DNA from: Sulfurimonas indica
GTDB lineage: Bacteria; Campylobacterota; Campylobacteria; Campylobacterales; Sulfurimonadaceae
DNA length: 64,000 bases
Direction of reading: 5' to 3'
Assembly (NCBI RefSeq): GCF_009192995.1
Contig: NZ_SDID01000001.1
Location: forward strand, 124,001 to 188,000
Positions 29,053 through 33,480 of this stretch are shown one piece after another (the first letter of the stretch is position 1; every line of letters starts with the position of its first letter). Both the position numbers and the translations under genes were made by a program. Under the pieces are notes generated by a model. The model saw only the letters and a program-made list of their open reading frames with translations. It searched no databases and had not been told where the DNA came from.

Positions 29053-32000
29053 CTAAGCTCCTAAAATATCCACATATTCATTACCATCAAGTGCACTAAT
29101 GAGACTCGGTCCCACGCGAATAGCTGAATCGATGACAACATTATGCAGTTTTGAAACAATGGTAACTTTAAGTGGTCTGTTACCTGGATGTTGGCGAATT
29201 ATGCTGTAAAGATTTTCTAAGACATCAAAATCACTAGAGAGTCTCACGGCAAGATTGACCGGCTCAGGCGGAGCTTCCTGGATCTCTGTTTTTACCTTTT
29301 TTGTCTCTCTTTTTGCATCTTTGAGCGTCATGATTTTCGTTACATTCAAACGCGGACCAAAGTCTGTATGGGTAATGCGTGCTTTAAAAGCAACCGGCTC
29401 TTCAAGGTCCATCGCTTCGAGTTGCTCTAACTTGTCTGAAAAGAGCATAATATCAATATTTCCATGGAAGTCCATCAGATTCACTATACCAAACTGATTT
29501 CCTTTTTTGGATATCTTTCTCTGAATCTCTTCGACTTTACCGATAAATATCGCAAATGAACCATCTTTAATGCTCTCTAATTCGGATGAGAGTGTATAGT
29601 TTAACTCATCTAATATCTCACGGTACTCATCCATCGGGTGACCCGATACATAAAAACCAAGTGTGTCTTTTTCAAACTCTAAAATCTCTTTGAGTTCATA
29701 CTCATCTGAGTTAGTGAGTTCTAGTTTTACCGTTGTGATCTCCGCATCATCACCAAAGAGAGAACCCATGGCATTTTTCTTTGCCTCGCTCGCTTTTTTC
29801 GCAGTCTCAATGATGAGTTCTATCTGATCTAAGAGTGCCTTACGTGAGTAGCCGTATCTATCAAATCCACCGGCTTTAATGATAGACTCTATAACACGCT
29901 TGTTTACTTTAGAAGGCTCGATTCTGTTTACAAAATCTTCCAAACTGACATAGTCACCATTCTCTTCACGTTCTTCGAGCATCGCTTCAACGGCAGCCTC
30001 ACCGACTCCCTTGATAGCACCAAGTCCAAATAAAATGACCTCTTGTCCATCTTTGTTAATTGCAGAAAATTCTAATTGTGAATCACAGATATCTGGAGGG
30101 GAAAGCTCAATCCCCATACGTTTTACTTCATCGATGTATCGGACAACTTTGTCTGTATTGTCCTTATCAGATGTTAAAAGTGCCGCCATAAACTCATTTG
30201 AATAGTATGTTTTGAGCCATGCTGTCTGAAAGGTAACCATCGCATATGCTGCTGAGTGAGATTTGTTAAAACCATAACCCGCGAACTTCTCAATCAAATC
30301 AAAAAGCTTACTCGCTTTTTCATAATCATACCCCTGTTTTGCAGCACCCTCAGAGAACTCGGCATTGTAGACGGCCATATCTTTTTTCTTACCCATAGCA
30401 CGACGGATAATGTCAGAATACCCAAGAGAAAAACCACCAATGGTCTGAACGATCTGCATAACCTGTTCTTGATAAACGATGACCCCGTAGGTATTTTTAA
30501 GGATCGGCTCCATAGAGTCAAAGGTATACTCTATCTTCTCACGACCATGCTTACGTTCAACGAAACTGTCAAGCATTCCTGACTCCATCGGTCCCGGACG
30601 ATAAAGTGCCAATACCGCGATCAAATCCTCAAAGCTGTCAGGTTTCAAACGACGGTTTAGGTCTTGCATACCGGAAGATTCTATCTGGAACATCCCGACA
30701 GTATCACCGCTTCGGATAATCTCATACACTTTTGGATCATTCTCATCAATCGTATGCCAGTTAACATCTACATCATATCGACGTTTAATAAGTTTGACAG
30801 CATTTTGAATAACATCGAGTGTTTTGAGTCCCAAGAAGTCAAACTTGATCAGATCAACATCCTCTAAATAGTTCAGTGAATATTGTGTTACAAAAGTATC
30901 TTCCCCGCTTGGCTTATAGATCGGTGTCTTTTTCCAAAGCTCTTCATTACTTATAACAACACCTGCTGCATGCATTCCCGAGTTACGTTTTAGACCTTCG
31001 AGTTTTTTAGCAAACTCCCAAACACGCTTGGCTTGAGGGTCTGACTCTACCAGCTCTTGAAGCTTTGGCTCTTTTTGAAAAGCACCCTCAATAAACTCAC
31101 CTTTTTTAGTCTTTCCATTAAGCGTGATTCCAAGCTCATCAGGGATGAGTTTTGCCATTTTGTCTGCTTGAGAGAGCGGCATATCAAGAACACGGGCGAC
31201 ATCGCGGATAACCCCTTTTGCAAGAAGCGAACCAAAAGTAATGATTTGTGCTACTTGATTACGTCCATACTTTTTTACAACATAGTCAATCACCTCGCCA
31301 CGGCGTGCCTGCATAAAGTCCATATCGATATCGGGCATACTTACACGTTCAGGATTTAAAAAACGCTCAAAGAGCAGATCATACTTCATCGGGTCAATGT
31401 CTGTAATCTCTAAGGCATAGGCAACAAGACTTCCTGCTGCACTCCCTCGACCAGGTCCAACAGCGATTCCCATCTTTTTGGCCTCTTTAACAAAGTCCCA
31501 AACGATCATCATATAACCCGGAAATTTCATTGAGTTGATGATATCCATCTCAAAATCAAGCCGTTTTCTGTACTCTTCATGACGCTCTGGTGGTACGATT
31601 TTAAGACGCTCTTCAAGTCCCTCTTTACATTTGTAGACAAAGTACGCGGCATCATTTTTATCAGCCGCACTCATCCACTTTTTCTTCTCCTCTTCACTTG
31701 CATCATCAGGTAGTGGAGCATCATCTTCATTGTTAATATCAAGTCCCTCTGCCTTCGCATACTCTTGCGTGAATTTAAAGTGTGGCGGTGTAGGAGTCTT
31801 TACAATAGGGACAAAATCTTCACACTTATCTACAATCTCTTGCGTATGCAGTAGTGCTTCTGGGATATCGGCAAAAAGGCGTGCCATCTCATCAGGAGAT
31901 TTGATGTAGAACTCATGGACTGAGTGACGCATTCTGTTTGGGTCATCATAGAGTTTATTCATCCCGATACACATAAATGCCTCATGATACTGTGCATCAT

Positions 32001-32667
32001 CAGGATATGTATAGTGTGTATCATTTGTTGCTACGACTTTGATGCCCGTCTCACGTGATATCTTTAAGATCTGTTCATCAATGTAGAGCTGGTCTCCGAT
32101 ACCGTGACGCATAAGCTCAAGATAAAAATCATCTCCAAAGATATCCTGATACTCACGTGCAACTTCAAGTGCACCCTCATAGCCGAGTGCTCCATTTTTG
32201 ACATTTCTCTCATTTTGCAAGTTAAGATGCCAGTTTACTTCGCCTTGCAGACAAGCAGATGTACAGATAAGCCCTTCACTATGCTCACGCAACTCTTTTT
32301 TATTGATACGAGGAAAGTAGTAAAATCCCTCTATAAAAGCTTTTGAAGAGAGATACATCAGGTTCTCATAACCCTTTTTATTTTTAGCGTACAAGCAGAT
32401 ATGAAAACGCTGTTTTGTAGACTTGTCACCCAGAGTCTCACCGTTATGGATGTAGCCTTCCATCCCGATAATGGGCTTAAGACCTGCATCTTTCATCTGC
32501 TTGTAAAAATCAATGGCACCAAACATATTTCCATGGTCTGTCATTGCTACAGAAGTCATACCAAGCTCTTTTACACGGCTTACCAGATTTGAGAGTTTGT
32601 TGGCACCGTCTAAGAGTGAATATTCTGTATGTAAATGTAAATGTGTAAAAGGAAGTTGTGCGCTCAA
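29053..32667 (-). CDS. dnaE: DNA polymerase III alpha subunit
   Basis: At 1204 aa this is the replicative polymerase. The PHP domain opens with T-H-L-H-L-H-T-E-Y-S-L-L-D-G and has M-T-D-H-G-N. The catalytic Asp motif is P-D-I-D-M-D-F, with G-P-G-R-G-S-A-A-G-S and Y-R-P-G-P-M-E-S-G also present. An OB-fold follows near residue 1000. The start is TTG 32667, preceded by AGGA with a 7-nt gap. The fold-back element begins only 27 bp upstream, so the promoter must lie in or next to that element. Confidence 0.97.
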   Translation of the reverse strand: MSAQLPFTHLHLHTEYSLLDGANKLSNLVSRVKELGMTSVAMTDHGNMFGAIDFYKQMKDAGLKPIIGMEGYIHNGETLGDKSTKQRFHICLYAKNKKGYENLMYLSSKAFIEGFYYFPRINKKELREHSEGLICTSACLQGEVNWHLNLQNERNVKNGALGYEGALEVAREYQDIFGDDFYLELMRHGIGDQLYIDEQILKISRETGIKVVATNDTHYTYPDDAQYHEAFMCIGMNKLYDDPNRMRHSVHEFYIKSPDEMARLFADIPEALLHTQEIVDKCEDFVPIVKTPTPPHFKFTQEYAKAEGLDINNEDDAPLPDDASEEEKKKWMSAADKNDAAYFVYKCKEGLEERLKIVPPERHEEYRKRLDFEMDIINSMKFPGYMMIVWDFVKEAKKMGIAVGPGRGSAAGSLVAYALEITDIDPMKYDLLFERFLNPERVSMPDIDMDFMQARRGEVIDYVVKKYGRNQVAQIITFGSLLAKGVIRDVARVLDMPLSQADKMAKLIPDELGITLNGKTKKGEFIEGAFQKEPKLQELVESDPQAKRVWEFAKKLEGLKRNSGMHAAGVVISNEELWKKTPIYKPSGEDTFVTQYSLNYLEDVDLIKFDFLGLKTLDVIQNAVKLIKRRYDVDVNWHTIDENDPKVYEIIRSGDTVGMFQIESSGMQDLNRRLKPDSFEDLIAVLALYRPGPMESGMLDSFVERKHGREKIEYTFDSMEPILKNTYGVIVYQEQVMQIVQTIGGFSLGYSDIIRRAMGKKKDMAVYNAEFSEGAAKQGYDYEKASKLFDLIEKFAGYGFNKSHSAAYAMVTFQTAWLKTYYSNEFMAALLTSDKDNTDKVVRYIDEVKRMGIELSPPDICDSQLEFSAINKDGQEVILFGLGAIKGVGEAAVEAMLEEREENGDYVSLEDFVNRIEPSKVNKRVIESIIKAGGFDRYGYSRKALLDQIELIIETAKKASEAKKNAMGSLFGDDAEITTVKLELTNSDEYELKEILEFEKDTLGFYVSGHPMDEYREILDELNYTLSSELESIKDGSFAIFIGKVEEIQRKISKKGNQFGIVNLMDFHGNIDIMLFSDKLEQLEAMDLEEPVAFKARITHTDFGPRLNVTKIMTLKDAKRETKKVKTEIQEAPPEPVNLAVRLSSDFDVLENLYSIIRQHPGNRPLKVTIVSKLHNVVIDSAIRVGPSLISALDGNEYVDILGA

Positions 32668-32693
32668 TTTTTATCCTAAAAATCTTAAATTTT

Positions 32694-32965
32694 ATAGACT
32701 TCTTGTATAATTTCTATATGTCTCAAGGAGCTAAGAAGTAGTAAGATTGTGCAAAACAAATTTTTCAGCCTAGCTATAGCTAAAGTGAAAATATTTTTTT
32801 GTGCAAGGTTGCTGCTTCTTAGCTCTCCCTATGGGCATATTATAGAGAGCTTTACTCTGCGTTAGATAACCCCAACCGTAGCTTTGGCTACGCTTGAGAA
32901 CATCTGCCTTGATTAAAACTCTCTATAATATGTTGAGACATATAGAAATTATACAAGAAGTCTAT
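32694..32965. repeat. 272-bp fold-back element with a three-armed structure
   Basis: A perfect 33-bp inverted repeat (32694-32726 with 32933-32965) encloses two further inverted repeats. Arm 1 spans 728-744 with 809-825 (17 bp including two G-T pairs) around the palindrome TAGCTATAGCTA (32771-32782). Arm 2 is a perfect 14-bp pair (32836-32849 with 32919-32932) enclosing an inner stem CGTAGC/GCTACG (32877-32892). A tiny CCC-TAT-GGG hairpin sits between the arms. Nearly every base is accounted for. There is no ORF. The wobble pairs form only in plus-strand RNA. A MITE-like mobile element or structured RNA is possible; no clear target duplication is seen. Confidence 0.85.
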
Positions 32966-33016
32966 TGCTGATTATAGTAAATTTTGCTTAATGTGGAGTA
33001 AGAATTTTAAAGAAGT

Positions 33017-33048: not shown

Positions 33049-33195
33049 TTATTTAAGAAGTTTTTTCCAAGCTTTTTCTATTCTTTTAACAAGTTTTGAA
33101 GTGATACCTTTTACCTCTTCGAGTATTGATGGATTTTGATGGATAACACCAACAACATCATCAACACTTCCAAAGTGTTCAACGATTTTTTTCAC
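33049..33195 (-). CDS. small helix-hairpin-helix protein or fragment, 48 aa
   Basis: The reading frame from GTG 33195, with AAGG 10 nt upstream, gives 48 codons. The sequence I-V-E-H-F-G-S-V-D-D-V-V followed by I-L-E-E-V-K-G-I-T-S-K-L-V-K-R-I resembles a helix-hairpin-helix DNA-binding module like those in RecD2, UvrC or ComEA. It could be a real mini-protein or the tail of a decayed larger gene, because a disrupted reading frame lies immediately upstream. A terminator follows it. Confidence 0.45.
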   Translation of the reverse strand: MKKIVEHFGSVDDVVGVIHQNPSILEEVKGITSKLVKRIEKAWKKLLK

Positions 33196-33202
33196 TTTTT
33201 TC

Positions 33203-33480
33203 TTACCTTATAGTAAGTGATGGGATGAAGCGTACATGAGGAAGCTCACGTGCAATCTCACGAAATGTCTCATATGCAGTTGCAGGAATGTTTCCGATGA
33301 AAACATCAATCTTCTTACGTTTAACCTCTTTGATAAAACGATCTTTATCATTTTTCCAGTGATATGTTACCGTCTCTATCTTGTTTGGCCACCCTTTAAA
33401 GTTAGAGTGGTCAAAAAAACGCAGTACATAATCTAAATATAAAAATCCTAATTTTGGCAGTTCTTTGTTGCTAAGTACAT
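33203..33480 (-). pseudogene. disrupted gene between efp and the fold-back element
   Basis: An ATG at 33480 has a good ribosome-binding site (AGGG, 9 nt upstream) but its frame closes after 10 codons. The overlapping frame is open for 92 codons to the stop at 33203 and reads like a genuine protein (G-F-L-Y-L-D-Y-V-L-R-F-F, then I-D-V-F-I-G-N-I-P-A-T-A-Y-E-T-F-R-E-I-A), yet it has no ATG, GTG or TTG. A one-base shift near 33455-33470 would join the two. I do not recognise the family. It may be a true pseudogene or a sequencing error in the A-run. Confidence 0.5.

Follow-up and report, generated by a model that had tools for sequence, protein, structure and literature searches.

The window analysed here, a stretch of 64,000 nucleotides of a Sulfurimonas genome, carries a compact, strongly structured element directly upstream of an ORF that we take, from its sequence, to be dnaE. 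To the right of the element, between it and efp, lies a gene remnant (33067-33207, minus strand), whose 47 codons match the C-terminus of a 286-aa ORF with 85% identity; in the relative G013 this ORF adjoins dnaE. The gene debris noted earlier is therefore real. The features of the locus are listed below.

29053-32667, minus strand: dnaE, DNA polymerase III alpha subunit, with a TTG start, transcribed away from the element (from the ORF list)
32691-32696, minus strand: TATAAA spanning the left junction, a possible -10 box of dnaE, also seen in the empty site of G020
32693-32695, no strand: left side of the ANT duplication, which reads TAT in this copy and is not intact (from the sequence and the ANT rule)
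32696-32963, plus strand, 268 bp: complete copy of the mobile element, a MITE, with arm A on the left, arm B on the right and ends as in 69 copies from other genomes
32696-32726, plus strand: left terminal inverted repeat, beginning AGACTTCTTG, a perfect match to the right repeat, its outer part as in IS5-family elements
32728-32825, minus strand: arm A, a palindromic hairpin unit (self-complementary match), its CGTT-like sense on the minus strand
32827-32835, plus strand: junction mini-hairpin CCC-TAT-GGG (from the fold; related elements have CCC-loop-GGG)
32836-32932, plus strand: arm B, a palindromic hairpin unit (self-complementary match)
32860-32863, plus strand: conserved internal-loop side CGTT of arm B, GTT being invariant in 28 units
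32906-32911, plus strand: conserved internal-loop side GCCTTG of arm B, with G, C and T invariant in 28 units
32924-32929, plus strand: TATAAT in the foot of arm B, pointing outward to the right, a possible -10 box that a scan did not class as a consensus sigma-70 promoter
32933-32963, minus strand: right terminal inverted repeat (self-match to the left repeat)
32964-32966, no strand: right side of the ANT duplication, which reads ATT in this copy (from the sequence and the ANT rule)

The perfect 33-bp terminal repeat of the preliminary description is an exact match (32694-32726 with 32933-32965), of which the outermost two bases on each side belong to the flank. The limits of the element, 32696-32963 (AGACTT...AAGTCT), were set from the ends common to other copies, so that the structure first described stands while its size is corrected from 272 to 268 bp. 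Likewise, the element does adjoin dnaE, and its corrected edge lies 28 bp, rather than 27 bp, from the TTG start at 32667. The RNA fold of 32684-32975 has an energy of -132.2 kcal/mol, compared with -60.0 +/- 4.6 for shuffled sequences (z -15.7; none of 200 shuffles was as good), and gives a terminal stem, two arms and a small junction hairpin, the same architecture as had been drawn before. According to the ORF list, no ORF of at least 50 aa lies inside 32696-32963.

The region upstream of dnaE is found without the element in two relatives, G020, where the flank is 93% identical and the flanks rejoin within a few bases, and G022, where it is 84% identical. The earlier suggestion was that the element may carry dnaE's promoter. 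Because the TATAAA of the empty site is retained at the junction, the native dnaE -10 box, and with it the predicted promoter core, may survive the insertion.

Copies, target duplications and probable IS5-family partners

Sequence searches of the same Sulfurimonas genome gave 15 matches to a model of the hairpin unit, read as about 10 elements, and BLAST revealed two large copies besides the one in the window, one of them cut by a contig end, together with partial pieces and others that consist of the terminal inverted repeat (TIR) only. Sulfurimonas OB5 (G106) has 69 unit matches and several dozen elements. In many OB5 contigs the sequence stops 80-100 bp from a terminal repeat, which looks like breakage of the assembly by the repeated element. 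The element was matched in 49 of the 199 genomes searched, its own included, and a 21-base core pattern was present in 109 stretches from named genomes, mostly Sulfurimonas with one Sulfurospirillum. Those matches to the pattern that were listed outside Campylobacterota are chance hits in unrelated sequence, as are the four in IMG/VR, and plasmid records gave no match to the element.

The ends of the copies are of the AGACTTCTTGCA type, and the target sequence duplicated is the 3-bp ANT. A perfect ANT duplication flanks 48 of 69 copies with intact ends, compared with a mean of 21 and a maximum of 32 for shuffled flanks, and the preferred target is TANTA; the duplication of the window copy is degenerate (TAT and ATT). 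The structure in the window is a copy of a mobile MITE and not a one-off, as it is short, has terminal inverted repeats and no transposase gene, and occurs in multiple copies with target duplications and empty sites. A miniature mobile element had already been proposed, with BLASTN for second copies as the check, and the further copies in its own genome, homologues in relatives, ANT duplications, two empty sites and IS5-family insertion sequences with the same ends and duplications all bear this out.

Two kinds of variant copy were also seen. TIR-only mini-hairpins of 38-61 bp without a core (G000:C3:37855-37907, G000:C50:99660-99720 and G000:C52:57631-57668) are probably collapsed copies. AGAC-type copies of 294, 309 or 334 bp occur in L083, L085, L101, L113, L114, L138 and L174, and in the long copies displayed (L083, L085, L114 and L138) it is arm A that contains the additional sequence.

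The AGACTTCTTGCA-type ends and ANT duplications of the element recur in IS5-family insertion sequences of relatives. An initial search for pairs of such ends gave convincing pairs only in L199 and L207, the remainder being loose. The L207 insertion sequence, retrieved from the PF01609 transposase loci, is 896 bp long with AGACTTCTTGCATAACC ends and an ATT duplication. At L207 1077-1972 an IS5-type transposase is split between two frames that overlap at an A7 run, an arrangement suggestive of programmed frameshifting. The transposase belongs to the IS5 family, with a DDE domain. It matches PF13613, PF13359 and PF01609, the last two above cut-off, and also NF033581, where the division of the gene into two parts keeps the score below the curated cut-off. 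A protein search placed L207-type transposases in 13 of 199 genomes, with no match in the genome of the window copy or in OB5. The ends of elements in transposase-bearing genomes are AGACTTCTTTCATAACC (L302, L303), AGACATCTTGCAAAACTC (G138) and AGACTTCTCCTAAAAC (G084), identical ANT duplications flank nearly all of the insertion sequences displayed, and AGACTTCTTGCATAACC and AGACTTCTTTCATAACC ends also define MITE subfamilies. Ends common to MITEs and autonomous transposons are thus found in L301-L303 and the G138 elements (not in the genome of the window). Because these insertion sequences have the same ends and duplications as the element, we infer that IS5-family transposases of this kind act in trans to move it, as they would a MITE.

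The hairpin-unit core and its exchanged ends

The core consists of two homologous hairpin units in opposite orientation, with a CCC-loop-GGG mini-hairpin between them and CTCAG/CTGAG borders. Unit model R1 matches arm B on the plus strand (32838-32931, 98.5 bits, this copy having been in the training set) and arm A on the minus strand (32732-32820, 26.3 bits, E 0.003). Arm-B-type units also occur twice, facing opposite ways, in several elements. The core is therefore made of two homologous units, one inverted relative to the other. RNAalifold performed poorly on the full 282-column alignment, with the arms misaligned, and the units were therefore aligned separately. Among 28 diverse arm-B-type units, both-sided changes occur in 18 of 19 consensus pairs, so that the covarying pairs looked for at the suggestion of the preliminary description do exist. 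Within stems that covary freely lies an internal loop (CGTT/GCCT) that is non-complementary and nearly fixed; in or beside it C, GTT, G, C and T are invariant, although the units have a mean identity of 58%. Variants of the core with inserts and deletions exist.

A search with the unit model detected units in 59 of 397 Campylobacterota genomes, representing 21 of 68 genera. A search of 45 transposase loci, each extended by up to 1.5 kb of flanking sequence, gave no unit, so the core is not derived from those insertion sequences. Every complete element examined is about 264-277 bp long, and there are at least six unrelated kinds of ends. Elements of the same architecture with other ends, reached through partial matches to the core, include those with GGGCACCTCTAAAAACCC, TAACTGACCTTACGCA, TAAGTCCTTAGTCAAG, TAAGTACCTTCCCATAA, ATTACTCCACTGAC and TATTACCGCACC. 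The GGGCACC type has complete elements of 264-269 bp, and in 8 of 13 the flanking bases are TA, placed as a TA duplication would be; GGGCACC-like ends are also those of insertion sequences in L183 and L185. The core of L046 is 88.8% identical over 215 bp to that of the AGAC-type L031 but has GGGCACC ends, and contig L138 carries both types. For these close cores (L046, L138) a change of ends among transposon types is shown directly, and for the remaining element types we infer it. The recurrence of the core across genera with exchanged ends suggests that the core itself is under selection.

Strand preference and neighbouring genes

When 66 copies were scored symmetrically, the left arm (A) had 250 G-T against 101 A-C pairs, and the right arm (B) 222 A-C against 87 G-T, that is, a minus-strand wobble. 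Reading 37 non-redundant units in the sense of CGTT gave 45 A-C against 15 G-T among the isolated wobbles (p 1.3e-4, a value that treats positions as independent, which is true only in part). It is thus on the strand opposite CGTT that the hairpin is favoured: the plus strand in arm A, the minus strand in arm B. Wobble pairs that work only on the plus strand, as reported earlier for the window copy, are thus not general, and the single functional plus-strand RNA that they hinted at is disfavoured, because the wobbles favour opposite strands in the two arms; Rfam gave only matches below the gathering score. The bias is compatible with strand-specific hairpins in single-stranded DNA and also with a pair of separate RNAs. 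The covariation, the loop invariance and the strand bias together support selection on the hairpins, and for the covariation alone palindrome correction stays a rival.

As judged from mechanical ORF calls, with copies in one genome not independent of each other, no ORF contains any of the 64 copies that have sufficient flanking sequence. The neighbouring genes are divergent for 28 copies, tandem for 29 and convergent for 6, and a start codon is a median of 31 bp away; where the genes are in tandem, 23 of 29 cores are codirectional with them. With the same reservations, an RBS and start codon follow within 70 bp at 43 of the 68 B ends, compared with 24 of 68 for A ends. A general rule by which insertion rebuilds a -10 box at the junction was considered and rejected, such boxes being equally common at ends that do not face a start. 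In Sulfurimonas the element is often inserted just upstream of start codons, and this may matter for gene regulation.

Interpretation and comparison with known systems

It is probable, in our assessment, that IS5-family transposases move this MITE in trans, that its core has been kept through changes of ends and that its hairpins are under selection. The transposases would recognise the AGACTTCTTGCA-type ends, cut and paste the element in trans and duplicate an ANT target. The core, which does not stem from the insertion sequences examined, has kept its architecture and near-constant size as the ends changed. Each unit would be selected as a strand-specific hairpin, with a sequence-specific internal loop read by a putative factor, probably of the host; such reading would help the element to persist or move, and copies just upstream of start codons may influence neighbouring genes. 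On the likeliest reading the element is a parasite that swaps its ends, and selection acts on its hairpins as single-stranded structures. It is more tentative, and in our view somewhat short of an even chance, that the two-hairpin core is the lasting unit of selection, a passenger that takes the ends of different transposons and is read by a common host factor. Against the main reading as a whole stand the lack of a match to L207-type transposases in its own genome and OB5, the degenerate duplication of the window copy, the TIR-only mini-hairpins that persist without a core, and the fact that stem covariation can also come from replication errors that perfect a palindrome.

The last point is central to a different explanation, in which this is an ordinary MITE with an inert interior and the arms are ancient inverted duplications, kept near-perfect by hairpin replication errors that copy one arm from the other. 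Such correction would give both-sided changes like those observed, and both TIR-only derivatives and core variants with inserts or deletions exist. But correction or drift would change the loop, and this non-complementary loop hardly varies among units of 58% mean identity; architecture and size are kept even in complete elements whose ends are unrelated, and the wobble pairs favour one strand of the unit. We regard an inert interior as unlikely. The hairpins could instead act as RNA, as one structured molecule or as two inward RNAs, one per arm, and the very stable fold, the covariation and the wobbles on the strand read inward from each end are all in favour of this. However, the wobble strands of the two arms cannot both serve a single RNA, no Rfam family was matched at threshold, and G-T is the milder mismatch in single-stranded DNA too, which together make a functional non-coding RNA distinctly doubtful.

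A role as a mobile promoter or regulator, with the core kept since copies supply or tune transcription beside the arm-B end, would suit the excess of RBS and start codons at B ends, the outward TATAAT at 32924, the absence of copies from ORFs, the scarcity of convergent (6) relative to divergent (28) contexts and the codirectional tandem copies. This too seems improbable, as TATAAT is absent from many related cores, the promoter scan was near chance level, -10-like boxes at junctions are as common where no start is faced, and a preference for TANTA alone would favour A+T-rich upstream regions. A REP/REPIN-like module mobilised by Y1 (RAYT) transposases, to which the IS5-type ends are secondary, would account for the inverted pair of hairpins, and Y1_Tnp genes occur in 124 of 397 genomes, including about 37 of the 59 that bear units (counted from the rows listed), among which they are thus enriched. 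It is nonetheless very unlikely: about 22 unit-bearing genomes, G111 and G093 included, have no Y1_Tnp match, and inverted ends of transposon type bound every complete element examined. Of the 397 genomes, 37 have NF033581 transposases, and few of the 59 unit-bearing genomes are among these, so that neither a Y1_Tnp nor an NF033581 transposase is needed for carrying units.

MITEs are usually explained by their ends alone, whereas here a folded core remains recognisable while the ends are exchanged. The role of the inside of a MITE becomes testable, since elements that naturally combine one core with various ends can be compared. To our knowledge no other MITE, NEMIS, ERIC, RUP and Nezha included, has a core conserved across several unrelated end types. 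An IS5-type MITE is already a known kind of element; the inverted pair of hairpin units that survives the exchange of ends is new as far as the tools show. A literature search, with subscription journals and preprints outside its scope, found no paper on MITEs in Sulfurimonas and none that combines MITEs, covariation and non-coding RNA, which is weak evidence of novelty.

The insertion sequences with matching ends presumably belong to the ISL2 group of the IS5 family, which is defined by the ANT duplication. They resemble the element in their AGACTTCTTGCA-type terminal repeat and ANT duplication, and differ in carrying a transposase and no hairpin unit, where the element has the reverse. Integron attC sites are similar in having a hairpin with a GTTRRR motif and in possible single-strand recognition. 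The order of boxes in attC is RYYYAAC ... GTTRRRY, and an attC site was rejected on inspection of the unit alignment by eye, because GTTRRR there lies 5' in the hairpin, so that the attC order is reversed. Among bacterial MITEs, NEMIS, ERIC, RUP and Nezha are alike in being 70-300 bp long, non-coding and gene-adjacent, with terminal inverted repeats and strong secondary structure (PMC3733652). REP sequences and REPINs share the inverted pair of imperfect hairpins (PMC3116915, PMC3733652), and the two inverted hairpins of a REPIN are indeed present here, R1 matching both arms on opposite strands. The element differs from these in its units of about 90 nt, set in elements of 264-277 bp with transposon-type ends and target duplications.
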